NCBI RefSeq assembly: GCF_002198715.1
Contig: NZ_MWLK01000032.1
Location: 62,001 to 126,000, forward strand
Direction of reading: 5' to 3'
Length of the DNA stretch: 64,000 nucleotides
From: Rhodomicrobium sp. R_RK_3
Lineage (GTDB): Bacteria > Pseudomonadota > Alphaproteobacteria > Rhizobiales > Rhodomicrobiaceae
Part shown: positions 7,098 through 50,017 of the stretch, piece after piece
Layout of the letters: every line of letters starts with the position of its first letter
Position numbering within the stretch: position 1 is the stretch's first letter
Position numbers and translations under genes: made by a program
The notes under the pieces: generated by a model
Seen by the model: only the letters and a program-made list of their open reading frames with translations
Told to the model about the DNA's origin: nothing
The model's database searches: none

Positions 7098-9002
7098 CTA
7101 CTCTTCCTTCTGCGCCAGGAACGGCGTGATGCGCATGAACTCTACCCGGCGGTTGCGCACTTCAGGCGCTTGCGTCGGGACGTAGAGATCCTGCTCGCCA
7201 TAGCCTTGCGTGACCAGATTTTCCGGCGGCACGCCGAATTCGTCGGTCAGCACGCGGGCGACGGTCTCGGCGCGGCGGTCCGACAATGACAGATTGTCCT
7301 CGTCCGAACCGACGGCGTCGGTGTGGCCGGCGATCAGGAAGACCTCCTCCGGATTGCGATCGAGGATGCGCTTGATGACATCGGCGACCTCCTGCAGGCT
7401 GCCGACCTGATCCTCGCGCACCTCCCATGAACCGAACTCGAAATTGATGGTGTTCAAATTCACCCGGCGCAGGCGGCGGCGGAGATTGTCGCTATAGCGG
7501 ATCTCGTCGAGCGTGTAGTCGCCCTCGACATCGTCGATCGGATCGGCGCTCAAGGCTTCCTCCAGCGCGTCTTCTGAGGCGCCTTCGGCTTCGACGTAAT
7601 ATTCATTGCGCGGAATGCCGATCACCGGCTCCGGCAGCTCGACATAGAAGCCGAAGCCGCCGCGGCGGCGCCGGTCATCGTCCCAGTCGCGGAAATTGCG
7701 GCCGCCGCGCCGAAATTCATTGTTGATCAGCACGATGCGCCGCCCGTTCGGCAGCACCTTGATGCGGCGGACCAGATTGCCCTTGTCGTCCTGGATGCTG
7801 ATGATCTGCACGCCGTTCGGCCGCGTGACGATGGTGCGGTCGCGCCCGCCCTGTTCTCGCTCGACGCGATAATCGCGCGCGCCGCCACGAAAACGCTCAT
7901 TTTCGTCATGCCGGATGATGACCTTGCCTTGGTCGCGCTCGATGCGGCGCTTGCCCGGCTCCTCGATGACGATGCGGCCGCCTTCCTCGCGCCGCTCGCG
8001 GCGCTGGCCGGTGATGTCCTTCAGCCTTTCGCGGGAGAATTCCCGGCGGTCGCGGCGGCGCTCCTGCATCTGGTCATTGGTGAAGGTCCGGCGCGGATCG
8101 CCCTCGCTGCCGCCTTCGGCCTGACCCCGGCCCGGACCGCCATCGCGCCCGCCCGGCTTGAACCTGTCGCGCCGATCGCCCGGGCCGTCCTGGCCCTGGA
8201 GGGTGCGGCCTTCCGCGCCCGGGCCGCCCTCACGCTTGTCGCCGCCCTGACCCGGCTGGCCCTGCCCTTGCAGCGTCCGCCGCTCGGCACCTGGGCCGCC
8301 TTCGCGCTTGTCGCCGCCCTGACCGGGCTGGCCCTGCCCTTGCAGCGTCCGCCGCTCGGCACCCGGGCCGCCCTCGCGCTTGTCGCCGCGCTGGCCGTCA
8401 TCCTGCTTCTGGCCGGCGCGCTGGCGCCGCTCCTGCTCTTCCTTTTCGCGCTGGGCGCGCAAGGCCCGCTCGCGCTCATCCTGCTGGCGCTCGCGAAGCT
8501 GCTCGCCGCTCTGCTGCGGCGGCGTCTTGATCCGCCGGTCGGGACCGTCATCCTCGCGCCGGTCGCCGCCCTGGCCCTGCCGCGCGCCATTGCGCTGCTG
8601 CTCTTCGATCCTTTCGCGCAAGGCGCGGCCGCGATCTTCGCCCTGCTGCTGTTGCCGGTCGCCGCCGCCCTGCTCCGTCTGCTCGCGCCGGAACTGCTGC
8701 CGCTGATTATCGCCGCCGCCACCCTGGCCGCCTTGGCTTCGGTGCTGACGGTCATCGCCGCCGCGATGATCCTGCCCGCCGCCGCCACCGCCGCGCTGGT
8801 CCTGGCCGCCGCCGCCACGATGGTCCTGCTGGTCGCGGGCCCTCTCGCGGCGCCGCTTGTCATCGTCCTGATCGCCTTGCGCCTGCGCGAGCTGGAACTG
8901 CGTCGCTCCAAGGGCGCGCGGCTCCGCCCGCGCCGAACCGGCCACGGCAATCCCCATCGCCGTTCCGATCAGCAAAAACTCTCTTGTGCCTATCCGAAGC
9001 AT
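7098..9002 (-). CDS. OmpA-family outer membrane protein with a long low-complexity Q/R/G/D-rich region
   Basis: A 634-residue exported protein. A signal peptide (MLRIGTREFLLIGTAMGIAV, then AGSARA) is followed by roughly 300 residues made almost only of G, Q, R, D and E, including three copies of a 24-residue unit beginning GGDKREGGPGAERRT. A central region mentions PNGRRIVLINNEFRR, and the C-terminus (about 520-634) is an OmpA-like peptidoglycan-binding domain: FLIAGHTDAVGSDEDNLSLS and RAETVARVL with the usual Asp/Arg ligands to diaminopimelate. I moved the start to the ATG at 9002 because AGGGGCGAGGAA lies directly before it and the signal peptide begins there. It probably links the outer membrane or periplasm to peptidoglycan; the charged region may be a disordered spacer. 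Confidence 0.87.
   Translation of the reverse strand: MLRIGTREFLLIGTAMGIAVAGSARAEPRALGATQFQLAQAQGDQDDDKRRRERARDQQDHRGGGGQDQRGGGGGGQDHRGGDDRQHRSQGGQGGGGDNQRQQFRREQTEQGGGDRQQQQGEDRGRALRERIEEQQRNGARQGQGGDRREDDGPDRRIKTPPQQSGEQLRERQQDERERALRAQREKEEQERRQRAGQKQDDGQRGDKREGGPGAERRTLQGQGQPGQGGDKREGGPGAERRTLQGQGQPGQGGDKREGGPGAEGRTLQGQDGPGDRRDRFKPGGRDGGPGRGQAEGGSEGDPRRTFTNDQMQERRRDRREFSRERLKDITGQRRERREEGGRIVIEEPGKRRIERDQGKVIIRHDENERFRGGARDYRVEREQGGRDRTIVTRPNGVQIISIQDDKGNLVRRIKVLPNGRRIVLINNEFRRGGRNFRDWDDDRRRRGGFGFYVELPEPVIGIPRNEYYVEAEGASEDALEEALSADPIDDVEGDYTLDEIRYSDNLRRRLRRVNLNTINFEFGSWEVREDQVGSLQEVADVIKRILDRNPEEVFLIAGHTDAVGSDEDNLSLSDRRAETVARVLTDEFGVPPENLVTQGYGEQDLYVPTQAPEVRNRRVEFMRITPFLAQKEE
8190..8396 (-). 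repeat. 72-base tandem repeat inside the OmpA-family gene
   Basis: CTTGTCGCCG recurs at 8235, 8307 and 8379, exactly 72 bases apart, and the intervening sequence is nearly identical. It encodes about three copies of a 24-residue unit. In-frame period and high identity suggest recent slippage or recombination, so copy number could vary between strains. Confidence 0.88.
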
Positions 9003-9172
9003 TTCCTCGCCCCTTTTTGGAAATTTCAAGCCGCGCGGCCTCATCGTGGAAGATCACGCCGCGTCATTCATGCCGACCATCGCGCGTTTTTTGTGACTGT
9101 GCGCTGAACGACTGTCCCATAACGAAGCAATCAAGCGGCGACAGAGTTCCCAAGGGGCAGAAAAGCGGCCGG
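9003..9172. promoter_or_regulatory. Upstream region of the OmpA-family gene
   Basis: 170 bases between two minus-strand genes. It must hold the promoter of the OmpA-family gene and the 3' end of the SDR transcript's upstream neighbour. I see A-rich patches near 9085-9130 but no element I can define with confidence. Confidence 0.3.
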
Positions 9173-9913
9173 TCAGGTCTCGAAACCGCCATCGACATTG
9201 AAAGTCGCGCCGGTGATATAGGTGCCGGCCTCGCTCGCCAGGAACACCGCCGTATGCGCGGTTTCCTCCGGCGTACCATAGCGGCCGAGCGCGGTCATCA
9301 TGGTCATCAGCCGGGCGTGGCGGCTCTCTTCCAGGTTCATTTCGGTGGCGATGGGGCCGGGCTGAATGGCGTTGACGGTGATGCCCAGCGAACCGAGGTC
9401 GCGGGCGAAGGCGCGGGTCATGCCGGCGACCGCGAATTTGCTGATCGCATAGAGCCCGACGCCGGGCGCCGGAACGCGCGCGCCAAAGGTGCTCGAGACG
9501 TTGATGATGCGGCCGCCGCGCGGCAGAAGCGGCACCGCCGCCTTGATGGCGATATAGGCGCCGCGCATGTTGACCGCCATGACGCGGTCGAATTCCTCGT
9601 CGCTGGTGCTCTGCAGCAGGCAGCGCCTGAACATGCCGGCATTGTTGACGAGGATATCCAGCCCGCCGAGCCGTTCATGCGCCAGCGCCACCGATGCGCG
9701 CACCGCTTCGGCGTCGCCCGCGTCCGCGCGGATAGCCTCGCCGGTGACGCCATGCGCGCGGATCGCGGCGGCCGTCGCCTCCGCCTGCGCGGGCGAGCTG
9801 AAATAGGTCAGCGCGACATCGGCGCCCGCCGCGCCGAGCGCCCGCGCGATCGCCGCCCCGATGCCACGGCTCGCGCCGGTGACCAGCGCCTTCTTGCCCG
9901 ACAGCACGCCCAT
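9173..9913 (-). CDS. SDR family NAD(P)-dependent oxidoreductase
   Basis: A 246-residue classical short-chain dehydrogenase/reductase. It shows the cofactor motif TGASRGIGAAIARAL near the N-terminus, NNAG after strand 4, the catalytic Ser in NVSSTFG, YAISK (the YxxxK pair) and the terminal NVDGGFET typical of FabG-like members. The substrate is unknown. I placed the start at the ATG at 9913 (MGVLSGKKALVTGAS), preceded by GGGGGGAACTGGGC, because longer frames run into the upstream gene. It follows the DUF1330 gene after 26 bases on the same strand, so the two are probably cotranscribed. Confidence 0.88.
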   Translation of the reverse strand: MGVLSGKKALVTGASRGIGAAIARALGAAGADVALTYFSSPAQAEATAAAIRAHGVTGEAIRADAGDAEAVRASVALAHERLGGLDILVNNAGMFRRCLLQSTSDEEFDRVMAVNMRGAYIAIKAAVPLLPRGGRIINVSSTFGARVPAPGVGLYAISKFAVAGMTRAFARDLGSLGITVNAIQPGPIATEMNLEESRHARLMTMMTALGRYGTPEETAHTAVFLASEAGTYITGATFNVDGGFET

Positions 9914-9939
9914 GCCCAGTTCCCCCCGGATCGAAAACC

Positions 9940-10230
9940 TCAGCTCGCGCCTTCCACGATGACGATCTCGCCATCGGCGCAGGTCTGCCGGATGGCGGCG
10001 GCGATCTGATATTCCGGCGAGTGGTAGCACGCCAGCGCCTGTTCGAAGCTGTCGAATTCAATAATCACATTGCGCGGGCGCCCTTCGCCCTCGACAGCTT
10101 CCGAGCGGCCGCCCCGCGCAAGGAAGCGCGCGCCATATTTCTGGAATGGAGCCTTGGTCGCCTCCACATATTGCGGATAGATGTCGGCATTGTTGACGGT
10201 GACGCGGGCAACCCAATAAGCCTTGGCCAT
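9940..10230 (-). CDS. DUF1330 domain-containing protein
   Basis: A 96-residue protein matching the DUF1330 family, a ferredoxin-like dimeric alpha/beta barrel fold. Family features visible are KAYWVARVTV at the start, PRNVIIEFDSFEQALACYHS in the middle and the repeated hydrophobic strand EIVIVEGAS at the end. No biochemical function is established for the family. GGGAGTGAATC precedes the ATG. It is the first gene of a likely two-gene unit with the SDR at 9173-9913; it is divergent from moaE. Confidence 0.88.
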   Translation of the reverse strand: MAKAYWVARVTVNNADIYPQYVEATKAPFQKYGARFLARGGRSEAVEGEGRPRNVIIEFDSFEQALACYHSPEYQIAAAIRQTCADGEIVIVEGAS

Positions 10231-10329
10231 GATTCACTCCCAGCATTTGCGAGCGCCAGCATAGTCCGGCGCGGCGGCTTTGTGGAGGGAGAGGCGGAGG
10301 CCGCAAGGACTTTCGACAGGAGACAGGCC

Positions 10330-10782
10330 GTGATCCGGGTTCAAGGGGACGATTTCGATGTCGGCGCGGAGATCGCCGGGCTGACCGCCGGGCGCGAGGA
10401 TATCGGCGCGGTGGTGAGCTTTACCGGCATCGTGCGCGGGGGCAGCGGCGAGCGCGCCATCCGCGCCATGACGCTGGAGCATTATCCCGGCATGACCGAG
10501 CGCGAGCTCGAACGCATCGAAGCCGAAGCCCGCGACCGCTGGCCGCTGAGCGCGAGTCTGGTGGTGCATCGCCATGGCCGGCTGATGCCCGGCGAGAATA
10601 TCGTGCTGGTGGTGACGGCCTCCGCGCACCGGCAAGCCGCATTCGAGGCGGCCTCGTTCCTGATGGATTACCTGAAAACCAGCGCCCCGTTCTGGAAAAA
10701 GGAAGAGCGCCTCGCCGGAGGTGATGGCTGGGTCGAGGCCAAGGCGGATGATGACGCGGCGGCTGGGCGGTGGGGGAAATAG
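10330..10782 (+). CDS. moaE: Molybdopterin synthase catalytic subunit MoaE
   Basis: A 150-residue protein. MoaE inserts the dithiolene sulfurs into precursor Z (cPMP) to make molybdopterin, using the thiocarboxylated C-terminus of MoaD. The family signatures are VVSFTGIVRG near residue 35, the conserved LEHYPGMTE, VVHRHGRL and the catalytic-lysine region LKTSAPFWKKEE. I chose the GTG at 10330, with AGGAGACAGG just before it. Usually moaD is directly upstream; here no moaD is present, so the small subunit must be elsewhere. The neighbour moaB is convergent across repeat A. Molybdenum cofactor is needed for the formate dehydrogenase and the iorAB-like enzyme in this window. Confidence 0.93.
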   Translation: MIRVQGDDFDVGAEIAGLTAGREDIGAVVSFTGIVRGGSGERAIRAMTLEHYPGMTERELERIEAEARDRWPLSASLVVHRHGRLMPGENIVLVVTASAHRQAAFEAASFLMDYLKTSAPFWKKEERLAGGDGWVEAKADDDAAAGRWGK

Positions 10783-10798
10783 GCGGCCAACCCTCATC

Positions 10799-10906
10799 CG
10801 TCGCCCCGGCCGTAAGAGCCGGGGCCCACTCGCCTCTCCCTTACCCTCAGTGCTTGCGGATCTGCCATTGGGTCCCGGCTCGGCCTGACGGCCGTCCGGG
10901 ACGACG
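10799..10906. repeat. Intergenic palindromic repeat, family A copy 3
   Basis: Starts with CGTCGCCCCGGCCGTAAGAG and ends with GCCGTCCGGGACGACG. It lies between the convergent genes moaE and moaB. Same ends as copies 4 and 5 but in the opposite orientation. Confidence 0.82.
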
Positions 10907-10914
10907 AAGTTCGC

Positions 10915-11451
10915 CTACTTCCGGTGCTCTTCCAGCCTCGGCATGATCTCGACGAAATTGCAGGGCCGGTGGCGGAAGTCGAGCTGCGACTTCAAAATGC
11001 CGTCCCAGGCGTCGCGGCAGGCGCCAGGCGAGCCGGGCAGGCAGAAAACATAGGTGCCGCCGATCACGCCCGCCAAGGAGCGCGACTGCACGGTCGAGGT
11101 GCCGATCTTCTGGAAGCTGATCAGGTGCATGACGACGGAAAAGCCGTCGATCTCTTTCTCGAAAAGCGGGCGCAGAGCCTCCGGCGTCACGTCGCGGCCG
11201 GTAAGGCCGGTGCCGCCGGTCGTGATGATGGCGTCGATCTCCCTATCCGCCGACCAGCGCTTGACCAGCGCCTGAATCTCGGTCGTCTCGTCGCGGCAGA
11301 TGGCGCGGTCGGCGAGCTGATGGCCCGCCTCGGTCAACAGCGAGGCGAGCAGCGCGCCGGATTTGTCGTCCTCCAGCTTGCGCGTGTCCGACACCGTCAG
11401 CACGGCGATGCGCACGGGCTTGAATGGGCGGGATTCGTCGATGCCTGGCAT
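10915..11451 (-). CDS. moaB: Molybdenum cofactor biosynthesis protein MoaB
   Basis: A 178-residue MoaB/MogA-fold protein, which adenylylates molybdopterin before molybdate insertion. Visible features are IAVLTVSDTR near the start, IDAIITTGGTGLTGRDVTPE (the conserved TTGGTG and D of the pterin site), and LPGSPGA towards the end. Length fits MoaB. It is preceded by GAGG and an ATG at 11451. It is alone on its strand here, upstream of which lies the secreted protein at 11515-12033 (63 bases). The MogA paralog is an alternative name for the same function. Confidence 0.93.
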   Translation of the reverse strand: MPGIDESRPFKPVRIAVLTVSDTRKLEDDKSGALLASLLTEAGHQLADRAICRDETTEIQALVKRWSADREIDAIITTGGTGLTGRDVTPEALRPLFEKEIDGFSVVMHLISFQKIGTSTVQSRSLAGVIGGTYVFCLPGSPGACRDAWDGILKSQLDFRHRPCNFVEIMPRLEEHRK

Positions 11452-11514
11452 ATAACCTCGGCTGGTCGCGATCCCGGCGGGCGCTTTCTCGCCTCCCGCC
11501 GGGGTCGGACAATG

Positions 11515-12033
11515 CTATTTCGACAGCGAGACGGTTGCCACCGGAACGTGGCGGCCGGCGCCGGGATCGAACTGGGTGATGGTTAGCGACTGCTTGCCGC
11601 CGGTGACGCGGACGGCAAACCGGCCCTTAAAATTGGGTCCGTCGACTTCGATATTCATGCGGTCGCCGCCGATCTTGCCGGCCACGCTGCCGGTATTGTT
11701 GGCAACCTTTTCTTCCCAGCGGCCCGACACGCTGTCGCCTTCGCAGGAGACGTTGGCGGTCGCCTCGAACTTATAATCGGTGCCGGCGCAGGAAATCTTC
11801 TGCGCGACCTTGCCGCCTGAATTGTTGTAATTGACGCGGCAGGAAATCCGCTCCTCGGCGCCGCCGATGGGCTTCACCGTGCCCGAGCCGCGCCAGGCGC
11901 CGTTGAGATTCTTGATCAGTTCCGTGCCCGAGGCGCCGCAAGCGGCGAAAGCGGGGCTGGCGAACGCGCCTCCGGCGACGGCCGCGAGGACCAGTCCGGC
12001 GCAAATGGGTCGTGCGATTTTTGCAAATGTCAT
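11515..12033 (-). CDS. Small secreted protein of unknown function
   Basis: A 172-residue protein with a clear Sec signal peptide: MTFAKIARPICAGLVLAAVA followed by a small-residue region ending FASPAFA, with cleavage predicted before ACGASG. The mature part is rich in short beta-strand-like stretches and has four Cys (ACGAS, ISCRV, ISCAG, VSCEG), suggesting two disulfides and a lipocalin-like or beta-sandwich fold; that fold is a guess. The ATG at 12033 is preceded by AGGGAAG. I do not recognise the family. It is likely periplasmic. Confidence 0.75.
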   Translation of the reverse strand: MTFAKIARPICAGLVLAAVAGGAFASPAFAACGASGTELIKNLNGAWRGSGTVKPIGGAEERISCRVNYNNSGGKVAQKISCAGTDYKFEATANVSCEGDSVSGRWEEKVANNTGSVAGKIGGDRMNIEVDGPNFKGRFAVRVTGGKQSLTITQFDPGAGRHVPVATVSLSK

Positions 12034-32273: not shown

Positions 32274-32722
32274 GCGTTTGAGGCCGCAGATGCTCGTAGT
32301 TTACCCTTTCCTTGGCGCGGGCAGCCGCGCGGAGCGATGGGTCATGCCGGCAAAGGCGCTCCATTGAGCGGCTCCTGCGTGCGGAGAATGTCGTCGCGGG
32401 CGGCGTCGAACGGATGAAGCTTTGCGAGCGGACAATTCAATATTGATCCACGTTAGATTGCCCACAGCAGTCCGATCATTGCCTGCGCCATCCAGACACG
32501 TGCAATTTGGAAGCCATTCATCACGAATAAACTTTCCAAGTGCAAACCGGATTTCTTAAAAATATTCAGCCGCCATAGGCTGATTTGTAAATCTGTTGGG
32601 ACGCAGATTTGGCCCTGGACGCCTGTGCTCTTCGACGAGCCGAAGACCCGCGCCTCTCGTCCAGGGCGCGGCAGAGCGCTGCCGCAGCCACTCGCCTGAA
32701 AAGGCCGGTTCAAGGACACATT
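32274..32722. other. Intergenic region upstream of the type I secretion operon
   Basis: About 450 bases. The stretch 32430-32600 is A+T-rich (for example AATATTGATCC and TTTCTTAAAAATATTCAGCC) and probably includes the promoter of the prtD-prtE-protease operon. No gene recognised, and no repeat of families A-C. Confidence 0.5.
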
Positions 32723-34465
32723 ATGCATAGGGACGACAGCATCCGCTCTGGCCTCTTGGCGTGCCGGCGCGGGCTGCTGATCGCCTTTGGCTTTTCGCTC
32801 GCGCTCAATCTCTTGATGCTGACCGTGCCGCTCTACATGATCTCGGTCTACGACCGGGTGCTGTCGAGCCGCAGCGAGGAGACGCTGCTGATGCTGACCA
32901 TCGTCGCCGTCGGCGCCATCGCGGCGGCGGCGCTCCTCGACGGCGTTCGCCAGATGATCCTCAACCGCACCGGCGCCCGGCTGGAGACCGCGCTCGGCGG
33001 ACGGGTCCTCACAGCGTCGCTGCACGCCCCCCATGCGGGCGCCGCCGACATGCAGGGCTTGCGCGACCTCGCCCAGGTCCGGCAATTCATCACCTCACCT
33101 CTCGCGGCGGGCATGTTCGACGCGCCGATGGCGCCGCTGTTCCTCATCGTCGTCTTCCTGGTGCATCCGCATCTGGGCTGGCTGGCGCTTGGCGCGGCCT
33201 GCCTCATCGTGCTGATCGCGCTGCTCAACCAGCACCTCACCCGCGCGCCCCTTTCCGACGCTTCGCGCCACGCGGCCTCGGCGCTCGGCAAGGCCAACGC
33301 GCATTTGCGCAATGCCGAAGCCATCCGCTCGATGGGCATGCTCGGCCATTGCACGGAGTCCTGGGGCGCCGACAACACCCGCGCCCTGATCGCCTCGGAC
33401 GCGGCCGGGCGGCACAATGCCATCCTCAACGGTTTCAGCCAGTTCCTGCGCCTGCTGCTGCAGATCGGCATGCTCGGCTATGGCGCCTATCTGGTGCTGA
33501 ACGACCATGCCCTCAGCGCCGGCATCATCTTCGCCGCCTCGCTGATCTCCGGCCGGGCGCTGGCGCCGCTCAACCAGGCGGTCAGCGGCTGGCGCAGCAT
33601 CGTCTCCGCCCGCCAGGCCTGGCGGCGGCTGAAGGCGCAGCTCGCGCGCGCCAAGGAAGACGACGGGCCGATGGCGCTGCCCGCCCCGCAGGCCACGCTC
33701 TCCGCCGACAGGCTGGTCTACCGGCCATCGCCCGGCGCCGAGCCGATCCTGAAAACCCTCACCTTCGCCATCGAGCCGGGCGACATGCTCGGCATCATCG
33801 GCCATAGCGGCGCGGGCAAATCGACCCTGGCCCGGCTGCTGGTCGGCGCGCTCGCGCCGAATTCGGGCATCGTCCGCATTGGCGGCGACGACATCGCCAA
33901 CTGGCCGGCCGAAGCCCTCGGCCCTTTCATTGGCTATGTGCCGCAGGATGTCGAGATGCTGCCCGCGACCGTCGCCCAGAACATCGCGCGGATGCACGGC
34001 GCGCCAGACCCGGAGGCCGTGGTGGCGGCGGCGAAGCTCGCCAATTGCCACGAGTTGATCCAGCGCCTGCCGCAAGGCTACGACACGCCGCTCGGGGCAC
34101 AAGGGCACATGCTGTCGGGCGGCCAGCGCCAGCGCATCGCGCTCGCCCGCGCCTTCTACGGCCATCCGCGCATCGTCGTGCTCGACGAGCCGAACGCCTC
34201 GCTCGACAGCGAGGGCGAACAGGCCTTGATCGCCGCGCTGCGCCAAGCCCATGCCGCCGGCATCACCTGCGTCGTCATCACCCAGCGCGCCAGCGTCGTC
34301 TCGGCGCTGACCAAGATGATGGTGCTGCGCGAGGGCCGCATCGAAGCCTTCGGGCCGAAAGAGGAGGTTCTGCAAAGCCAGATCCGCCCGGCAGGGGCGG
34401 TGCTACCCGTTCCGCCGGTGCCCGCACCGATGACCGCGAGGGTGAAAAGCCATGGCATGGCATGA
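32723..34465 (+). CDS. Type I secretion system permease/ATPase (PrtD-like)
   Basis: A 580-residue ABC exporter half-molecule: membrane helices in the first 300 residues (GLLIAFGFSLALNLLMLTVP is the first), then an ATPase with Walker A IGHSGAGKSTLARLL, Q-loop YVPQDVEMLP, signature LSGGQRQRIALARAF and Walker B IVVLDEPNASLD. PrtD-type ATPases move RTX proteins from cytoplasm to outside with an HlyD-type adaptor and TolC. Start ATG at 32723, with AAGGA upstream. It overlaps the adaptor gene by 14 bases. The metalloprotease gene that follows is the obvious substrate. TolC is not in the window. Confidence 0.93.
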   Translation: MHRDDSIRSGLLACRRGLLIAFGFSLALNLLMLTVPLYMISVYDRVLSSRSEETLLMLTIVAVGAIAAAALLDGVRQMILNRTGARLETALGGRVLTASLHAPHAGAADMQGLRDLAQVRQFITSPLAAGMFDAPMAPLFLIVVFLVHPHLGWLALGAACLIVLIALLNQHLTRAPLSDASRHAASALGKANAHLRNAEAIRSMGMLGHCTESWGADNTRALIASDAAGRHNAILNGFSQFLRLLLQIGMLGYGAYLVLNDHALSAGIIFAASLISGRALAPLNQAVSGWRSIVSARQAWRRLKAQLARAKEDDGPMALPAPQATLSADRLVYRPSPGAEPILKTLTFAIEPGDMLGIIGHSGAGKSTLARLLVGALAPNSGIVRIGGDDIANWPAEALGPFIGYVPQDVEMLPATVAQNIARMHGAPDPEAVVAAAKLANCHELIQRLPQGYDTPLGAQGHMLSGGQRQRIALARAFYGHPRIVVLDEPNASLDSEGEQALIAALRQAHAAGITCVVITQRASVVSALTKMMVLREGRIEAFGPKEEVLQSQIRPAGAVLPVPPVPAPMTARVKSHGMA

Positions 34466-35753
34466 CGGCGTCGAGACGGGCATCGCATGGCCGGTCGCCG
34501 CCGGGGCCTTCACCCTGGCGCTGATCTTCGGCGGCTTCGGCAGTTGGGCGGCCTTGGCGCCGCTGCAAGGCGCGGTCGTCGCCCCCGCAACGGTGATGAC
34601 CGATGGCCACAACAAGATCGTGCAGCATCTGGAGGGCGGCGTCGTACGGGAGATCCTGGTCACGGAGGGCCAGCGCGTGCGCGAGGGCGAGCCGCTGCTG
34701 GTGCTCGACGGCACCGCCTCGCGCTCGCAGGTGAGCCGCATCAAACTCCAGCTCGCTGCGCTGCAGGCGCTCGAAGCCCGCGCCCTCGCCGAGCGCGACG
34801 GCGCCAAGACCATCGCCTTCCCCGCCGCCTTGACCGCCGAGCGCGCGCCGGAAATCGTCTCGCTGATCGGCGACCAGAGCGCCGAATTCGCAACCCGCCT
34901 GCAAAAGCATCAGATCGAGCTCGCCGTGCTCGAACGCCAGATCGGGGCGCTCGACGCCGCGCGCGCCGGCCACGAAACGCAGAAGACCGAGACGCGCCAT
35001 CAGATCGAACTCGTCGTGGAAGAACGCCAATCCGCCGAGGGGCTGCTGCTGAAGGGGCTGACCCGGAAAAGCCAGGTGCTCGCCCTGAGGCGCGCCGAAG
35101 CGGAGCTCACTGGCAAAGAGGCGCAGCTTGCCGCCGCCATCGCGCAAGGCCGGCAATCGGTCGCCGAAATCCGGGAGCGCAGTTCGCAGCTCAAGACCGG
35201 CCGCGTCGAGGATGCCTCGGCCCGGCTGAGCGAGATCCGGCCCCGGCAGTCCGAGCTGATCGAACAGCTTCGCACCGCCGAGGACATTAGCGGCCGCGTC
35301 GTCGTGCGCGCGCCCGCCGCCGGCACGGTGATGACACTCAGCAAATACAATCCCGGCGCGGTGATCGCGCCCGGCCAGGAGCTCATGAAGATCGTCCCCG
35401 ATGGCACCGGCCTCATCGTCGAGGCCCGCATCCGGCCGCAGGACATCGCCGAGGTCAAGATCGGCCAGAAAGCCCGCCTGACCTTCCCCGCGCTCGATGC
35501 CCGCACGACGCCGCCCGTCCCCGCCGAGGTCGTCTATATTTCCGCCGACCGGCTGCAGGAGGAGCGCAGCGGCGAGGTCTATTACCTTGCCCGGCTGAAA
35601 GTTCTGCCCGATCCGATTGCCGGCTTCGATCCCGCCAGGGTCGGTCCGGGCCATGCCGCCGACGTCTTCATCACCACCGGCGAGCGCTCCTTCCTGGCCT
35701 ATGTCACGGCCCCGTTCATGAAATCCCTCAACCGGTCATTGCGCGAGAGCTGA
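34452..35753 (+). CDS. HlyD family type I secretion adaptor (PrtE-like)
   Basis: A 433-residue periplasmic adaptor. One N-terminal helix ([20 protein letters not shown]) anchors it in the inner membrane, a lipoyl half follows ([20 protein letters not shown]), then a long coiled-coil hairpin (about 95-270), the second lipoyl half ([16 protein letters not shown]) and the C-terminal barrel. It bridges the PrtD ATPase and outer-membrane TolC. Overlapping the upstream gene by 14 bases points to translational coupling. 56 bases separate it from the protease gene. Confidence 0.93.
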
Positions 35754-35809
35754 GCCGCCGGGCCTTCCCGCCGTCCCTCACCGCCCTCGCCAGAAAAAAG
35801 GAATTCGAC

Positions 35810-38338
35810 ATGCCCGCAATCAGCCGCTACGGCCCCACCGGCAACCCCTATATCGACGGCGTCATGTCCGGCGTGAAATGGGCGTCCACCGCGCTCACCT
35901 ATAGTTTCCCGGCCTCCGCCGGCGCCTATGGCGCCAATTATGGCGACGGCGAGCCGCAGGATGCCTTCGGCGTGTTGAACACCGCGCAGAAGACGGCGAC
36001 GCGGGACGTGCTCGCGAACATCGCCTCGAGCGTCAATCTCACCTTCACCGAACTGACCGGATCCGCCGCGCCGGGCGCGACCTTGCGCTACGCCAGTTCC
36101 GATGCGCCCGGCACCGCCTGGGGCTATTACCCCGACACCGACGCCGAGGCGGGAGACTCCTGGTACAACAATTCCTCCGGCCAATATGACAGCCCGGTCA
36201 AGGGCGATTACGCCTACATGACCTTCCTGCACGAAACCGGCCATACGCTCGGCCTCGACCACGCCCATTCCGGCTACGCCGTTCCGGTCGGACGCGACTC
36301 CATGGAATACACGGTCATGAGCTACCGGTCCTTCGCCGGCGCGTCGGTCAATATGGGCTATACCAACGAGAATTTCGGCTTCGCGCAGTCGCTGATGATG
36401 TACGACATCGCCGCGCTGCAATATCTCTACGGCGCGAACTACGCCACCAATGCGGGCGACAGCGTCTATAGCTGGAGCCCGACCACCGGCCAGATGTCGA
36501 TCAACGGCGCCGCGCAGAGCGATGCCGGCGGCAATAAGATCTTCATGACCCTCTGGGACGGCGGCGGGATCGACAGCTACGACCTGTCCAATTACAGCAC
36601 CAACCTGCGGATCGATCTGCGGCCCGGCGAATGGACCACGACCTCGGCGGCGCAATTGGCGAGCCTTTTTTATGACGGCTCGCGGGTCGCGGTGGGCAAC
36701 ATCGCCAATGCCCTGCTTTACACCGGGAGCTGGATGTCGCTCATCGAAAATGCCGAAGGCGGCTCCGGCAACGACGCCATCTTGGGCAATCAGACCGCGA
36801 ACACGCTCTGGGGCAATGGCGGCAATGACGCGCTGGCCGGCGGCGACGGTCACGATACGCTCATCGGCGGCCCCGGCGGCGATATGCTGACCGGCGGCGC
36901 CGGCTTCGACATCGCATCCTACGCCGGCGCGGCGACGGGCGTGCTCGCCGAGCTGCTGCTCCCCGCCTACAACACCGGCGAGGCGGCCGGCGACCGCTAC
37001 GCCACCATCGAGGGCATCGTCGGCACCAGCTTTGCCGACACGCTGCGCGGCAATGAGATGCCCAACACCCTCATCGGCGGCGATGGCGACGACGTGCTTT
37101 ACGGCCGGGGCGGCAATGATGCGCTGTTCGGCGGCAACGACAATGACGCGCTGATCGGCATGCTGGGCATGGATCTGCTCGATGGCGGCGCCGGCGTGGA
37201 TATTGCCAGTTACGGCATCGCGGCGAGCTATGTGATCGCCGATCTGCTCAACCCCATGGTCAATGCGGGAGAGGCGCGGGGCGATGGCTATGTTTCGATC
37301 GAGAATTTATTCGGATCGGCCTTTGCCGACGGCCTGTGGGGCACCGACGCGGCCAATGTGATCTTCGGCGCGGGCGGCAATGACGCCCTGTTCGGCCGGG
37401 GCGGCAACGACACGCTGCTGGGCGGCGAGGGCAACGACACGCTGCTGGGGCTGGCGGGCGCCGATCATCTCGATGGCGGCAACGGCATGGACCTGGCCAG
37501 CTACGCCTATGCGCCGACCGGCCTGATGGCCGATCTGCTGACGCCGGGCATCAATACCGGCGAGGCGGCGGGAGACAGCTACCTTTCCATCGAGAACGTC
37601 ATGGGCTCGGCCTTCGGCGACGACCTGCGCGGCGATGCGATGGCGAATATCCTCTATGGCGGCGGCGGCGACGACATGCTGAGCGGCCGTGCCGGCAATG
37701 ACATCCTCGCCGGCGGCGAGGGGCACGACACGCTGATGGGCGGCGAAGGCGCCGACATGCTCCAGGGCGGCAACGGCATCGACATGGCGAGCTACGTCAA
37801 TGCCGCCGGCGCCGTGCTGGTCGACATGCAGTTCGCAAGCCTGAACACGGGCGAAGCCGCCGGCGACCGCTTCAGCGCGATCGAGCGCCTTTACGGGTCC
37901 GGTTTCGACGACAGTTTGCGCGGCGACGATTACGCCAACGTGCTCTATGGCGCCGGCGGCACCGACATTCTGTATGCCCGCGGCGGCAACGACTTTCTCA
38001 TCGGCGGCGAGGGCGCCGACGCGCTTTTCGGCAATGCCGGGGCGGATGTGTTCCTCTATATCGCGGCGGGCGATTCCCAGGCCGGTGCGGCGGATACGAT
38101 CTGGGACTTTGCCCAGGGCGCCGACAAGATCGATCTGCGCCTCATCGACGCCGATGCCAATGCGGGCAGCGATCAGGCTTTCAGCTTCATCAGCGGGGCG
38201 GCGTTTTCCGGCACGGCGGGCGAGCTGCATTTCGCCGGCGGCGTCCTCGCGGGCGACATTGACGGCGACAGCGCCGCCGATTTCCAGATCAACATCCTCA
38301 ACATCGCCATGCTGCATGCGAGCGACATCCTTCTGTAA
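35810..38338 (+). CDS. Serralysin-like RTX metalloprotease with four 97-residue modules
   Basis: An 842-residue secreted protease. There is no N-terminal signal peptide, as expected for type I export. The catalytic domain has the zinc motif [11 protein letters not shown] (141-151) and Met-turn YTVMSY (168-172). From about 330 onward come Ca2+-binding RTX nonapeptides (GGxGxDxLx), embedded in four consecutive modules of exactly 97 residues (365-461, 462-558, 559-655, 656-752), each starting G-x-D-(I/L/M)-A-S-Y. The last part is the M10 C-terminal domain with the secretion signal at the end (HASDILL). Serralysins are usually near 480 residues, so the module expansion nearly doubles the length. 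AAGGAATTCGAC precedes the ATG. No protease inhibitor gene is adjacent. Confidence 0.93.
36902..38065 (+). repeat. Four in-frame 291-base modules within the metalloprotease gene
   Basis: Module starts at 36902, 37193, 37484 and 37775 are spaced exactly 291 bases apart. Each encodes 97 residues with conserved landmarks: DxASY at position 3, N-(T/A)-GEA near 24, (S/T)-(A/S/G)-F-x-D near 42-46, an L-x-G-x turn, and three to four RTX nonapeptides. DNA identity is moderate, so the duplications are not recent. Confidence 0.9.
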
Positions 38339-40109: not shown

Positions 40110-42284
40110 ATGACACAGAGTTTGAATCTCTCCCGCCGTGGCTTCGTGATCGGCGCGGCCTCCGCCGCTGCCGGGTTGACGCTCGGTATGCGCCTGCCGG
40201 TCGCCACCGCCGCCATGGCCGATGCCGCGCAGCCCGATGAAGTCAACGCCTGGGTGGTGGTGAAGCCGGACGACACCATCGTGGTGCGCGTCGCCCGCTC
40301 GGAAATGGGCCAGGGCACGCTGACCGGCCTCGCCCAGCTCGTCGCCGAGGAGCTGGAATGCGACTGGTCGAAGGTGACGACCGAATATCCGACCCCCGGC
40401 ACCAACCTGAAGCGCAACCGCATCTGGCAGAGCTATTCGACCGGCGGCAGCCGGGGCATCCGCGAAAGCCATGAATATGTCCGCATGGGCGGCGCGACGG
40501 CGCGCGAAATGCTGATCCAGGCTGCCGCGCAGGAATGGGGCGTCAAGCCCGCCGAATGCCGGGCGGAGAACAGCATCATCACCCACACGGCTTCGGGCAA
40601 AAAAGTCAGCTTCGGCAAGGTCGCGGCGGCGGCGGGTAAGCTGCCGGTGCCGGAAGGCGTCAAGCTGAAGGACCCCAAGGACTGGAAGATCGCCGGCAAA
40701 CCGCTTAAGCGCCTGGACACCGCCGACAAGCTGACCGGCAAGCAGGTCTACGGCATCGACCTGAAGCTGCCGGGCATGCTCAATGCGGCGATCAAGGATT
40801 GCCCGGTCTTCGGCGGCAAGCTCGCCAGCTTCGACGACAGCACGGTGAAGACCATGCCGGGCGTCAAGGCGGTGGTGCGCGTCGGCGACAGCGCCGTCGC
40901 GGTCGTCGCGCAGACCTGGTGGCAGGCCAAGACCGCGCTCGATGCGCTGCCGATCGTCTGGGACAACGGGCCGAACGAGAAAGTCTCCAGCGCGTCGATC
41001 GGCGAATTCCTCAAGGAAGGGCTGACGGCGGAGAAGGCGGCAGTCGGCAACCAGAACGGCGATGCGCTGGGCGCGATCGCTAAGGCGACGAAGAAATATG
41101 AGGCGGTCTACGGCTATCCCTATCAGAACCACGCTACCATGGAGCCGATGAACGCCACGGCGCTGTGGACGCAGGACCGCTGCGACGTCTGGTGCCCGAC
41201 GCAGAATGGCGAGGCGGCTCTGGCCGCGTGCAGCGAGGCGGCCGACCTGCCGCAGGCGCAATGCGACGTCACCAAGATCCATCTCGGCGGCGGTTTCGGC
41301 CGGCGCGGCGCGTTCCATGATTATGTCCGCCAGGCGGTGCTGATCGCCAAGCAAATGCCCGGCACGCCGGTCAAGCTGATCTGGTCGCGCGAGGAGGACA
41401 TGCTGCACGGCGCCTACCACCCGATCACGCAGTGTAAGCTGTCGGCGGGCCTGGACGAGAAGGGCGATATCGTCGGCCTGCATATCCGCCTGTCCGGCCA
41501 GTCGATCCTGGCCTCGGTCGCGCCGGAGCGGATGGCCAACGGCGTCGATCCGGTCGCCTTCCAGACCTTCCAGCCCAAGGGCGAGCACGCCATCAGCTAC
41601 AGCTTCCCCAACCTGCTGATCGAGCACGCCATGCGCAATCCGCACGTCCCGCCGGGCTTCTGGCGCGGCGTGAACGCCAACCACAATGCCATCTACACGG
41701 AATGCTTCATCGACGAGCTGGCCTACGAAGCAAAGCAGGACCCGCTCGAATTCCGCCGCAAGCTGCTGAAGAACCACCCGAAAAACCTCGCGGTGCTGAA
41801 CGCGGTGGCCGAGCGCGCCGGCTGGGGCAAGCCTGCCGCGCCGGGCGTCTATCGCGGCCTCGCCCATTGCACGGCCTTCGGCAGCCATATCGCCGGATGC
41901 GCGGAAGTCTCCGTTACGGACGGCAAGCTGAAGGTCCACCGCATCGTCGCCGCGACGGATTGCGGCTATGCCGTCAACCCGCAGCAGATCGAGGCGCAGG
42001 TGGAAGGCTCCTTCGTCTACGGCCTGTCGGCGGCGCTCTATGGCGAGATCACCATCAAGGATGGCCGGGTCGAGCAGGAGAATTTCGACACCTATCAGGT
42101 CATGCGCATCGACGAAATGCCTGAGGTCGAGACCATCGTCATGCCCTCGGGCGGCTTCTGGGGCGGCGTCGGCGAGCCGACGATTGCCGTTGCCGCGCCC
42201 GCCGTGCTGAACGCCATCTTCGCCGCGACCGGCAAGCGCATCCGCACCTTGCCGCTGCGGCATCACGACCTGAAAACGGCTTGA
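40110..42284 (+). CDS. iorB: Molybdopterin-binding subunit of a Tat-exported xanthine-oxidase-family enzyme (isoquinoline 1-oxidoreductase beta-like)
   Basis: A 724-residue catalytic subunit. The N-terminus has a twin-arginine signal (LSRRGFVIGAASAAAGLTLG), so the enzyme works in the periplasm. Molybdopterin-domain features are MGQGTLTGLAQLVAEELE, IHLGGGFGRRGAFHDY, PPGFWRGVNANHNA and, near the C-terminus, GGFWGGVGEPTIAVAAPAV with the catalytic Glu of the GVGEP motif intact. It hydroxylates or oxidises a heterocycle or aldehyde with water as oxygen donor. Its TGA overlaps the soxX ATG (TGATG), which ties it to the sox genes and suggests SoxXA or another cytochrome c as electron acceptor; that is inference. 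Confidence 0.88.
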   Translation: MTQSLNLSRRGFVIGAASAAAGLTLGMRLPVATAAMADAAQPDEVNAWVVVKPDDTIVVRVARSEMGQGTLTGLAQLVAEELECDWSKVTTEYPTPGTNLKRNRIWQSYSTGGSRGIRESHEYVRMGGATAREMLIQAAAQEWGVKPAECRAENSIITHTASGKKVSFGKVAAAAGKLPVPEGVKLKDPKDWKIAGKPLKRLDTADKLTGKQVYGIDLKLPGMLNAAIKDCPVFGGKLASFDDSTVKTMPGVKAVVRVGDSAVAVVAQTWWQAKTALDALPIVWDNGPNEKVSSASIGEFLKEGLTAEKAAVGNQNGDALGAIAKATKKYEAVYGYPYQNHATMEPMNATALWTQDRCDVWCPTQNGEAALAACSEAADLPQAQCDVTKIHLGGGFGRRGAFHDYVRQAVLIAKQMPGTPVKLIWSREEDMLHGAYHPITQCKLSAGLDEKGDIVGLHIRLSGQSILASVAPERMANGVDPVAFQTFQPKGEHAISYSFPNLLIEHAMRNPHVPPGFWRGVNANHNAIYTECFIDELAYEAKQDPLEFRRKLLKNHPKNLAVLNAVAERAGWGKPAAPGVYRGLAHCTAFGSHIAGCAEVSVTDGKLKVHRIVAATDCGYAVNPQQIEAQVEGSFVYGLSAALYGEITIKDGRVEQENFDTYQVMRIDEMPEVETIVMPSGGFWGGVGEPTIAVAAPAVLNAIFAATGKRIRTLPLRHHDLKTA

Positions 42285-42751
42285 TGCGCACGAAGAAACC
42301 GGCGATGGCGGCGGCAATGCTCGCGGCCGCCATCGCCAGCCTTTCCGCCCATGAGTCTCGCGCTGGCGGCGCGCTGGCCGATTTCCAAATCGCCGGCGAC
42401 GCCATCCCCGCGCCGCTGGCCGGCCTGACCGGAGACGCGGCGCGGGGCCTTACCATCATCCGCGACCGCGCCGTTGGCAATTGCCTGATCTGCCACGCCC
42501 TGCCCTTGCCCGACGAGCTGTTTCAGGGTGAAATCGGACCCTCGCTCGGCGGCGTCGGCAACCGGCTGACGGCAGGCCAGATCCGGCTCCGGCTGGTCGA
42601 TCAGTCGCGCATCAATGCGGAGACGGTGATGCCGCCCTACTATCGAGTGGGTGGCCTCACCAATGTCGCCGCCGACTATCGCGGGCGTCCGGCGCTCGAC
42701 GCGCAGCAGATCGAGGACGTTGTCGCCTATCTGGCCGGGCTGAAGGAGTGA
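42284..42751 (+). CDS. soxX: Sulfur oxidation cytochrome SoxX
   Basis: A 155-residue periplasmic monoheme cytochrome c with a signal peptide (MRTKKPAMAAAMLAAAIASL, cleaved near SAHESRAGG). The heme site is CLICH (67-71) and the axial Met is Met116 in VMPPYYR, both as in SoxX. SoxX and SoxA form the SoxXA complex, which joins thiosulfate to the SoxY cysteine. The ATG at 42284 shares its A with the iorB stop codon. Confidence 0.93.
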   Translation: MRTKKPAMAAAMLAAAIASLSAHESRAGGALADFQIAGDAIPAPLAGLTGDAARGLTIIRDRAVGNCLICHALPLPDELFQGEIGPSLGGVGNRLTAGQIRLRLVDQSRINAETVMPPYYRVGGLTNVAADYRGRPALDAQQIEDVVAYLAGLKE

Positions 42752-42753
42752 CC

Positions 42754-43203
42754 ATGCCGACGCGCAGGCAGATCATGCAAGCCGCCGCCGCTCTCGCGGG
42801 CGCTGCCCTCGTGCGCGCGCCGGAGGCCCGTGCCGCGACCCAGCTCGAGGACGCCATCGCCGAGAAGACGCGCGGCGCGGCCGTCGAGCGCGGGCGGGTC
42901 ACGCTCGGCATTCCCCAGATCGCGGAGAACGGGCTTTCGGTCTTCACCACCGTCAGCGTCGAGAGCCCGATGACGGCGCAGGACCACGTCAAGGCGATCC
43001 ACATTTTTTCGGAAAAGAACCCCATCGCCCACATTGCCAGCTTCCGGCTGGGCGCGCGGGCGGGGCGCGCAAAAGTCTCCACCAACATCCGGCTGGCCGC
43101 TTCGCAGCGCGTCACCGCCATCGCGGAAATGAGCGACGGGCGCTTCTATTCCGACGAGCGCAATGTCGTCGTCACCATCGCCGCCTGCATCGACGGAGGT
43201 TAG
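42754..43203 (+). CDS. soxY: Thiosulfate oxidation carrier protein SoxY, unusual C-terminus
   Basis: A 149-residue carrier with a Tat-like signal (PTRRQIMQAAAALAGAALV). SoxYZ holds sulfur intermediates on the Cys of a flexible C-terminal arm, normally ending GGCGG. Here the end reads VVVTIAACIDGG: the Cys (145) is kept, but the flanking Gly-Gly is Ala-Ala and Ile-Asp is inserted before the final Gly-Gly. The remainder (LGIPQIAENG, VSVESPMTAQDHVKAIHI) is typical. I use the ATG at 42754, with AAGGAG 5 bases upstream, rather than the GTG at 42748. It follows soxX by 2 bases. Confidence 0.92.
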   Translation: MPTRRQIMQAAAALAGAALVRAPEARAATQLEDAIAEKTRGAAVERGRVTLGIPQIAENGLSVFTTVSVESPMTAQDHVKAIHIFSEKNPIAHIASFRLGARAGRAKVSTNIRLAASQRVTAIAEMSDGRFYSDERNVVVTIAACIDGG

Positions 43204-48554: not shown

Positions 48555-49256
48555 TCAAATCTCCAGCCACTCGCTGCGGATCTGGCGGTTGGCATCCAGC
48601 GCGGCGGGCGTGCCTTCAAACACCACCCGGCCATGGCCCATCACATAGACGCGGGCCGAGACCTTCATGGCAATGGTCAGCTTCTGCTCGACCAGCAGGA
48701 TCGACACGCCCCGCCGCACGATCTCGTGCAGGAGATCGGCGACGCGCTGAGTCATCTGCGGCGACAATCCCTCGGTCGGCTCGTCGATCATGATGAAATC
48801 GGGGTCGCCCATGAGGGTCCGGCACATGGTCAGCATCTGCTGCTCGCCGCCGGACAAGACCGTCGCATCGACATCGGCACGGGCGCGCAGATTGGGGAAG
48901 AGCGCGAACATGTCCTCCATCGACCAGCGGCTGGCGGCAATGTCCTGCCCCGGCTTGATGCCGAGGATGAGGTTCTGCCGCGTCGTCAGCCCGGCGAAGA
49001 TGTTGCGGTTCTCCGGCACGTAGCCGATGCCGAGCCGGGCGATGTCGTAGGATTTGCGCCCCGCGATCTCGGCGCCCTTGAACAGGATCGACCCCAGCGG
49101 CGGCACTTCGCCGATGATCGCCTTGCAGGTCGTCGAGCGCCCGACGCCGTTGCGGCCGAGCAGCGCGACGATCTCGCCCGCCCCGATGCGCATATCGACG
49201 CCGCGCAGGATGTGGCTCTTGCCGTAGTAAGCGTGCATGTCGTGGATTTCGAGCAT
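48555..49256 (-). CDS. livF: Branched-chain amino acid-type ABC transporter ATP-binding protein LivF
   Basis: About 233 residues. Signature ILSGGEQQML-like sequence appears as VLSGGEQQMLTMCRTL and Walker B as FIMIDEPTEGLSPQ. The Walker A motif reads LLGRNGVGRSTTCKAI, with Arg where Lys is expected. The variant is recurrent in LivF-like proteins as I recall, but I cannot check. With LivG it powers uptake by the LivHM permease. The ATG at 49256 shares a base with the livG stop (TGATG). Confidence 0.93.
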   Translation of the reverse strand: MLEIHDMHAYYGKSHILRGVDMRIGAGEIVALLGRNGVGRSTTCKAIIGEVPPLGSILFKGAEIAGRKSYDIARLGIGYVPENRNIFAGLTTRQNLILGIKPGQDIAASRWSMEDMFALFPNLRARADVDATVLSGGEQQMLTMCRTLMGDPDFIMIDEPTEGLSPQMTQRVADLLHEIVRRGVSILLVEQKLTIAMKVSARVYVMGHGRVVFEGTPAALDANRQIRSEWLEI

Positions 49257-50017
49257 CACTCCGCCGCCTCCAGCGCCGCGCCGAGATAGGCTTCCTGCAC
49301 CTTCGCGTTGGCGCGCACCGCTTCCGGCGTGTCGCTGGCGACGATCTGGCCATAGACCAGCACGGAGATGCGGTCGGCGAGGTTGAAGACGACGCCCATA
49401 TCGTGCTCAACCATGATGAGGGTCTTGCCCTCCGTCACCTGCCGGATCAGGGCGACGATGGCGTCGGTCTCGGAATGGCTCATGCCGGCGGTCGGCTCGT
49501 CGAGCATGATGACCTCGGCGCCGCCGGCGATGGTGATGCCGATTTCCAGCGCCCGCTGCTCGGCATAGGCGAGCAGGCCCGCCGGGACGTTGCGGCGCCC
49601 GGCGAGGTTGATGCGCTCGAGAATGTCGTCGGCGCGGGCGTTCAGCTCGGACTGGCCGGAGACGAGGTGCCAGAAGGAATAGCGGAGGCCCATCGGCCAG
49701 AGCAGCGCGCAGCGGACGTTTTCGAAGACGCTGAGCTGCGGGAAGATGTTGGTGATCTGAAAGGAGCGGCTGAGACCGCGCCGGTTGATCTCATAGGGCG
49801 GGCGCCCCTGGATCTCCTCGCCATGCAGGCGGATAGTGCCCTGCGTCGGGGCGAAGCGGCCGGTGATGAGGTTGAACAGGGTGGATTTGCCCGCGCCGTT
49901 CGGACCGATGATGGCATGGCGCTCGCCCGGCGCGACGCTGAGATCGACGCCGCAAATGATCTTCGCCTTGCCGAAGCTTTTGTGCACGCCGGTAAGTTCG
50001 ACCGCCGGGATACTCAT
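49256..50017 (-). CDS. livG: Branched-chain amino acid-type ABC transporter ATP-binding protein LivG
   Basis: A 253-residue ATPase. Walker A is IIGPNGAGKSTLFNLITGRF, the signature is reduced to AYAEQRALEIGI, as common in LivG-type proteins, and Walker B is VIMLDEPTAGMSHSET. It forms the heterodimer with LivF. It overlaps livM by 4 bases (ATGA). The substrate of the whole transporter could be branched-chain amino acids, amides, urea or aromatic acids. Confidence 0.93.
   Translation of the reverse strand: MSIPAVELTGVHKSFGKAKIICGVDLSVAPGERHAIIGPNGAGKSTLFNLITGRFAPTQGTIRLHGEEIQGRPPYEINRRGLSRSFQITNIFPQLSVFENVRCALLWPMGLRYSFWHLVSGQSELNARADDILERINLAGRRNVPAGLLAYAEQRALEIGITIAGGAEVIMLDEPTAGMSHSETDAIVALIRQVTEGKTLIMVEHDMGVVFNLADRISVLVYGQIVASDTPEAVRANAKVQEAYLGAALEAAE

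Follow-up and report, generated by a model that had tools for sequence, protein, structure and literature searches.

A SoxY protein with an AAC carrier arm is linked to iorAB instead of soxB and may serve a separate Sox module

The window, a stretch of 64,000 nucleotides from Rhodomicrobium sp. R_RK_3 (contig NZ_MWLK01000032.1), harbours a soxY gene within a tight run of genes on one strand, iorA-iorB-soxX-soxY-soxZ-soxA, which is followed by a gene for a flavocytochrome-c-type flavoprotein (Table 1). Both SoxXA and SoxYZ are present in this cluster, with SoxX, SoxZ and SoxA scoring over their NCBIfam cut-offs and the SoxY domain over that of Pfam. The pair of a [2Fe-2S] and a molybdopterin subunit is here called IorAB, a name that we assume to be appropriate; no NCBIfam equivalog cut-off is passed by either subunit. 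With its Mo-cofactor domains, its [2Fe-2S] subunit and a putative catalytic Glu, IorAB belongs to the xanthine oxidase family, and it is like the known two-subunit molybdenum hydroxylases in these features as well as in a TAT-like start. No signal peptide was seen by eye in IorA. Twin-arginine-like starts are found in IorB (SRRGFV), SoxY and the flavoprotein, among which only that of the flavoprotein passes a TAT model; judged from these starts, the module is most likely located in the periplasm. The flavoprotein shares with SoxF and flavocytochrome c sulfide dehydrogenase the FCSD_central (151.6 bits) and FCSD-flav_bind (56.8 bits) domains, each over the Pfam cut-off, and its closest solved chain is 5n1t_A. 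A cytochrome subunit gene was not seen beside it in the window, where no small CxxCH frame is listed at that place, and SoxX/SoxA could serve as its cytochrome partner. In relatives, a small CxxCH frame lies just upstream of the flavoprotein gene in 18/54 loci found via SoxY and in 10/24 found via IorB.

Table 1. Features of the iorAB-sox cluster, numbered from the first letter of the window
Feature	Position	Strand	Basis
iorA-like [2Fe-2S] subunit, 151 aa	39642..40097	+	Pfam Fer2_2 94.5 bits, Fer2 40.7 bits, both over cut-off
iorB-like molybdopterin subunit, 724 aa	40110..42284	+	Pfam MoCoBD_1 and MoCoBD_2 over cut-off
soxX, cytochrome c subunit	42281..42751	+	TIGR04485 73.2 bits, cut-off 61
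soxY, variant carrier arm, TAT-like start	42754..43203	+	Pfam SoxY; TIGR04487 and TIGR04488 scores
C-terminal arm VVVTIAACIDGG and stop	43165..43203	+	sequence; signature A-C-x-[E/D] in 87/87 arms
soxZ, 109 aa	43206..43535	+	TIGR04490 92.8 bits, cut-off 76
soxA, dihaem cytochrome with Cys haem ligand, 263 aa	43532..44323	+	TIGR04484 229.3 bits, cut-off 110
flavoprotein, flavocytochrome c sulfide dehydrogenase/SoxF type, 427 aa	44355..45638	+	Pfam domains

The soxY frame opens with an ATG at 42754 or, alternatively, with a GTG at 42748, and on the + strand it runs to ...NVVVTIAACIDGG-stop. The last 12 residues of the protein, VVVTIAACIDGG, are encoded by positions 43165-43200, with the codon of the carrier Cys at 43186-43188, and are followed by a TAG stop at 43201-43203. 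Compared to the canonical VTIGGCGG, Ala replaces the two Gly that precede the Cys and the tail has two extra residues, so that AACIDGG stands in place of the GGCGG arm. Re-reading of the + strand thus bears out the sequence-only reading, which had described a non-canonical arm with the Cys kept and both preceding Gly changed to Ala. The protein is a member of the SoxY superfamily, as it has one C-terminal carrier Cys and scores 108.8 bits against Pfam PF13501 (SoxY; cut-off 28.4). It stays under the cut-off of the canonical SoxY model TIGR04488 (114.3 bits, cut-off 125) and likewise under the curated cut-off of TIGR04487, the "SoxY-related AACIE arm protein" (164.2 bits, cut-off 172). TIGR04487 is nevertheless its best NCBIfam model and describes a like arm: AACID has the AAC and, two positions after the Cys, the acidic residue that the name of this family implies. 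The existence of TIGR04487 means that NCBI had already given the arm type a name, setting it apart from SoxY as an exception. Its cut-off is passed in just 2 of 61 matching genomes among the relatives (G041 and G071, 2 of 101 genomes), both of which have the gene cluster as in the window, and in four of 11 further genomes. Two public plasmid records bear the family name; in openly licensed PubMed Central papers we found no mention of TIGR04487 or of an "AACIE arm", and no function was obtained for the model. A search of the same papers for isoquinoline 1-oxidoreductase together with thiosulfate returned no Sox work by title.

An alignment of four such SoxY was used as query in a scan of 84,980 species, represented by one genome each, which employed two peptide patterns that exclude the arm and from which the best 80 of 472 confirmed loci were kept. 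Together with the window, relatives L033-L035 and plasmid loci L122-L124 these make up a set of 87 SoxY, in which we regarded the final Cys of every reading frame as the carrier. In this set, which consists of best-scoring loci (best 80 of 472) instead of a random draw and contains near-copies, many of them from Bradyrhizobium, that are not independent, the Cys, an Ala at position -1 and an acidic residue at position +2 (75 E, 12 D) are each found in 87/87 proteins, and position -2 is occupied by A (69), G (11), S (5), V (1) or P (1). As the signature A-C-x-[E/D] recurs throughout the related loci (87/87, counting the window), the sequencing error against which the sequence-only reading had advised a check can be excluded. 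Identity to the window SoxY drops to 47% in the named loci (best 80 of 472), and the record titles of the related loci point to Alpha- and Betaproteobacteria and one Gammaproteobacterium. When 41 SoxY found via IorB are added, a group that may have species in common with the first, Ala precedes the carrier Cys in 128/128 aligned proteins (the 87, including the best 80 of 472, and the 41) and E or D stands at +2 in 123/128 of them. The acidic residue is not universal, as I or V takes its place in 5 of the 41 arms found via IorB; arms of this kind read AACVIG, AACLIG and GACIVG (L192, L194, L213, L214, L216) and still have Ala before the Cys. For comparison we used 40 SoxY loci picked, not randomly, from the stronger non-variant rows among relatives; here, Gly precedes the Cys in 38/39 proteins, one of the 40 rows having been dropped by a length rule. 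An Ala before the carrier Cys offers a simple marker by which the two kinds of SoxY can be told apart.

Among the 83 loci seeded by SoxY (best 80 of 472 and L033-L035), many of which lie on short contigs, soxZ is found in 83, soxA in 81, soxX in 79, iorB in 74, iorA in 68, the flavoprotein gene in 54 and soxB in none. If only those loci (from the best 80 of 472 and the three relatives) with at least 5.5 kb of upstream sequence are counted, iorB is present in 66/67; the sole exception, L060, has the arm, soxZ and soxA, and neither soxX nor iorB over threshold in the 10 kb present upstream. The 40 comparison loci hold soxB in 27 and a flavoprotein gene in 25 cases, iorA in 0 and iorB in 0/40, 38 of them having at least 5.5 kb upstream. 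SoxC, searched with the protein of one comparison locus (L127), lies beside SoxY in 20/40 comparison loci, beside 0/87 variant loci (window and best 80 of 472 included) and in 0/60 regions seeded by IorB. The latter regions stem from a search with the window IorB against 385 genomes of the class and 398 of the phylum (E ≤1e-180, at most 2 candidates scored per genome), from which 35 of 39 rows (class), 22 of 26 rows (phylum) and 3 weaker rows were taken; the window's own genome, G041, the partial hit G296, G394 and repeats were left out. SoxY is found in 41 of these 60 regions, in each case with Ala before the Cys (41/41) and without soxB (0), and 24 of the 41, short contigs included, have the flavoprotein gene. 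The 19 regions without SoxY comprise two contig breaks (L172, L173), the region of G216 (L186), seven close IorB paralogues of 914-1034 bits with no sox genes in the region (L185, L189, L191, L193, L208, L210, L218), two IorB of 760-800 bits (L197, L212) and seven distant IorB of at most 660 bits. Of the 385 genomes sampled from the window's class, at least 26 were verified to have the cluster together with its SoxY (24 regions, the window and G041). In G240, and likewise in the incomplete G276, the variant sox genes and a close iorAB lie on separate contigs, an arrangement compatible with a partnership of the two.

Arms of the form SGAC[IA]E occur beside other IorAB in a more distant group (L196, L198, L199, L253), and in a second such group a GACEG arm is found beside another IorAB (L247). 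Although few, these cases support a tie between arm and IorAB that reaches beyond close descent. In L247 (G240:C24:110500-129500, 6348-9729), this other iorAB (IorB 407 bits) is divergent from a distant SoxYZ with the arm IGACEGLG, and no SoxXA was seen in the region; it is perhaps a second IorAB-SoxYZ partnership. A further group of relative SoxY loci (L138, L148, L149, L151-L155, L159, L161-L164) shows incomplete Sox layouts with neither SoxB nor SoxXA over thresholds in 12-18 kb, and several of these adjoin a flavoprotein gene.

To place the variant at the level of the organism, we used 54 genomes, namely 50 from the 80 named loci, chosen for long contigs and variety, and four from the relatives and the window's own. 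SoxB is present in 34/54 (33 over the cut-off and one gene split across two contigs, G112), and canonical SoxY passes its cut-off in the identical 34 genomes; SoxB thus goes with GGCGG and not with AAC. The other 20, including that of the window, carry the variant and give no match over the cut-offs to SoxB or to canonical SoxY; some of these assemblies are drafts or MAGs, in which a SoxB may have been missed. SoxC exceeds its cut-off in 31/54 genomes, three of which belong to the 20 (G120, G145, G147). The sequence-only reading had suggested that the arm tracks with the presence of iorAB and the absence of soxB and soxCD. This stands at the locus (iorB in 66/67; soxB in 0/83 and 0/41) and fails for the genome, and the simple equation of the variant with a genome without SoxB is rejected with 34/54 genomes to the contrary. 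Instead, the variant marks a second module and not an organism lacking SoxB: SoxB accompanies GGCGG and the variant accompanies iorAB, and each is found without the other. Neither of the two outcomes that had been named as speaking against a pathway with different partners was encountered. The variant is not scattered among complete sox clusters, with 0/27 soxB-adjacent comparison loci having the variant arm, and no second canonical soxY does the job in the window genome (99.49% complete, 39 contigs), where a single further protein with a SoxY domain was detected, a SoxYZ fusion that belongs to the quinoprotein-associated type (TIGR04557, 275 bits). A search of this genome gave no match to SoxB and, for SoxC, a best match of 137 bits (cut-off 420). 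Similar to the window SoxY, the TIGR04557 carrier on contig C7 goes, by its family name, with a dehydrogenase and not with SoxB; it differs in that SoxY and SoxZ are fused and the arm is GGC. In the 19.9 kb around it (L036) there are no matches to the window's SoxX, SoxA, IorA or IorB. The fused gene (L001, G000:C7:319911-320321) adjoins one for a SoxH-like metallohydrolase (TIGR04559).

The sox-linked IorB forms a subfamily of its own, unlike the other IorB of the relatives. Among the matches listed for 101 genomes (own and relatives, E ≤1e-100), those of four genomes reach 1067.9-1664.2 bits with at least 66% identity, all within the cluster, and the other listed matches stay at or below 634.2 bits and 46% identity, none of them near a SoxY match when the coordinates are read by eye. 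In an IorB tree (quick method) several changes are required to account for the sox-linked rows; stand-alone close paralogues fall among them and the distant IorB fall outside. Several stand-alone paralogues (L208, L212, L218) have long branches, as if freed from constraint. By eye, the gene neighbours of the stand-alone IorB paralogues have nothing in common that would hint at a substrate. The closest solved chain to the window IorB is 8gy3_C, an aldehyde dehydrogenase large subunit (288 bits), and its solved relatives carry the names of aldehyde, xanthine, quinoline, nicotinate and CO enzymes and the like. Glu689 of IorB, which we take to be the catalytic Glu, is kept in 71/71 and 59/59 aligned relatives (SoxY- and IorB-seeded sets; here and in the following, short rows were excluded). 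In SoxX, the CxxCH motif and a Met, presumably the haem ligand, are conserved in 83/83 and 39/39 proteins. SoxA keeps both CxxCH motifs and Cys224 in 84/84 and 41/41 cases; in alignments of SoxXA with solved SoxXA, Cys224 matches the Cys of solved SoxA chains that we assume to be the active-site haem ligand. Given this conservation of putative catalytic residues in SoxA, SoxX and IorB, a loss of function of the module appears unlikely.

Compared to canonical SoxY of the Paracoccus-type Sox system, the window protein shares the SoxY domain, the single carrier Cys near the C-terminus, the SoxZ partner and the adjoining SoxXA, but differs in its arm and in a cluster that has iorAB instead of soxB and soxC. 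In the Sox pathway, as described in passages of PMC2864759 and, for the loading step, also of PMC5748708, SoxXA attaches thiosulfate to the cysteine of SoxY, after which the terminal sulfonate is hydrolysed by SoxB; sulfane-primed forms appear in a passage of PMC5336275. SoxY of symbiotic sulfur oxidisers have been sorted by arm changes in PMC11237559, where, according to its description of the data set, sequences without the GGC motif were deleted before tree-building, so that the AAC type falls outside that scheme. Thiosulfate oxidation by Bradyrhizobium diazoefficiens needs soxY1 only and not soxY2, as stated with reference to earlier work in a passage of PMC5748708. The Bradyrhizobium genomes among the 54 have one canonical and one variant SoxY beside a fused type, and by inference soxY2 is therefore probably of the AAC type.

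With a probability of about 55%, we consider the AAC-arm SoxY to be the carrier half of a separate periplasmic iorAB-soxXA-soxYZ module, often with a flavoprotein and without SoxB/SoxCD, in which IorAB processes the carried group. This proposal is built on four observations, namely the arm signature, the gene linkage, the independence from SoxB and the conserved catalytic residues. SoxXA, with its Cys-ligated haem intact, would load a sulfur compound onto the SoxY cysteine, and IorAB, a molybdenum hydroxylase in the place of SoxB/SoxCD, would then oxidise the carried group. Where present, the flavoprotein would remove or oxidise leftover sulfane sulfur; as it is found in only 54/83 (best 80 of 472 and three relatives) and 24/41 loci, it is probably not essential. 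Electrons would exit via c-type cytochromes. The arm, with Ala before the Cys and a mostly acidic +2 residue, would be a docking form suited to IorAB and not to SoxB, and it is a reasonable inference that an arm of this kind needs to fit a different partner enzyme. That IorAB acts on the carrier itself, the order of the steps and the substrate are the proposed parts of this scheme. One genome points in another direction: G216, assembled in one contig, has iorA-iorB-soxX-soxA without soxYZ (L186, G216:C1:2347000-2366000, 7759-11916) and yields no TIGR04487 match. IorAB and SoxXA may thus work carrier-free, with IorAB handing its electrons straight to SoxXA, which weakens the role of the carrier.

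Enzymes of the IorB family hydroxylate C-H bonds, and for this reason we favour a carbon-bearing thiol as the substrate, a guess with about one chance in four or five. In the corresponding route, which we put forward tentatively and which could easily prove wrong, SoxXA would join the thiol to SoxY as a mixed disulfide and IorAB would hydroxylate the carbon beside the sulfur; the carbon would leave as an aldehyde or acid and the flavoprotein would take over the sulfane sulfur. Active sites of the IorB family are not known to take a protein-bound substrate. The same genes might instead still oxidise thiosulfate, sulfide or polysulfide, with SoxXA binding sulfane sulfur to SoxYZ and IorAB acting only as a stand-in for SoxCD or as an electron route. 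SoxX, SoxA and SoxZ do pass curated cut-offs of true Sox families, and the flavoprotein belongs to the sulfide dehydrogenase type. We nevertheless regard this inorganic variant as unlikely, as SoxB is missing from all 83 (best 80 of 472 and three relatives) and all 41 loci and has no match in the window genome, and as the names of the solved IorB relatives belong to aldehyde, xanthine, quinoline, nicotinate, CO and like enzymes. If soxY2 of B. diazoefficiens is of the AAC type, its dispensability for thiosulfate oxidation, stated in the passage of PMC5748708, also speaks against it.

Taking the solved structure 8gy3 at its name, IorAB could also be an aldehyde oxidoreductase of the periplasm with SoxXA as its electron acceptor, whereby the SoxY thiol would trap the aldehyde, take up the product as a thioester or be a minor accessory. 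The retention of iorAB-soxXA without SoxYZ in G216 is in line with this, as is the metallohydrolase gene beside another SoxYZ family, the one named quinoprotein-dehydrogenase-associated, in the window genome. It appears rather improbable, however, with SoxYZ beside IorB in 41/60 regions seeded by IorB, SoxZ in 83/83 loci seeded by SoxY (best 80 of 472 and three relatives) and a flavoprotein that, where present, is of the sulfur type. The AAC arm might, furthermore, be a neutral change fixed in one branch of SoxY, with SoxB, where present, still being served in trans. In an arm-masked SoxY tree, built from few columns and with comparison rows from one order only, the variant rows need only 2 changes, and arm and descent are therefore confounded; the arm type may still have a single origin. 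Against such a mere lineage marker stand the coincidence of the SoxB set with the canonical SoxY set (34/54), the other 20 genomes, which keep the variant without either, and the Ala at -1, which is retained in 128/128 proteins (including the best 80 of 472) despite identities down to 47%; we therefore give this explanation little credit. That the arm belongs to a broken SoxY, through decay or sequencing error, is practically negligible in view of the signature in 87/87 related loci (including the best 80 of 472), the open frame and the intact neighbours.

SoxYZ is the textbook carrier known mainly from thiosulfate oxidation. In the module described here, SoxYZ and SoxXA are tied to a molybdenum hydroxylase and not to SoxB/SoxCD, in Alpha- and Betaproteobacteria that include Bradyrhizobium, Bosea, Mesorhizobium and Polaromonas. 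An arm family that had been named, and for which no description was found in openly licensed PubMed Central papers, is hereby placed in a defined SoxB-free module. In public records, genes of the module are named after thiosulfate or sulfur oxidation and may therefore distort tallies of organisms that oxidise thiosulfate. Organisms with only the iorAB-sox module allow the substrate to be tested directly. If the organosulfur route were true, an enzyme of the xanthine oxidase family would act on a substrate held by a protein arm, and surveys, because they look for soxB, would have missed a route of sulfur oxidation.

Beyond the genes listed in Table 1, no further conserved gene was found: the labelled frame clusters (≥100 aa) that occur in more than 33 loci are only the seven genes, and unlabelled clusters of that frequency, which coincide with these genes in place but use other frames or the opposite strand, are taken, by their position, as shadow frames. 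Branched-chain ABC transporter genes, seen by eye in 33 loci, lie on both strands and at scattered places and were rejected as part of the module; in the window, a gene pair at 48555-50017 was confirmed as ABC ATPases. Also in the window, at 32609-38338, genes for a type I secretion ATPase and an HlyD-type adaptor precede that for a serralysin-like protein of 842 aa that carries RTX repeats. Downstream of the cluster, at a distance of about 2.5-8 kb, nine Bradyrhizobium loci have a gene of the SBP56 family (L067, L076, L084, L089, L094, L101, L103, L104, L108; family confirmed on one, L101). Of 22 genomes that have the module or, in the case of G216, only iorAB-soxXA, just 3 contain the gene, so that its position is taken as synteny within one genus and SBP56 methanethiol oxidase was dismissed as a fixed partner. 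On a Methylobacterium plasmid (L123, 21383-22117), a gene annotated as mddA (methanethiol S-methyltransferase) lies about 8 kb from the variant cluster.
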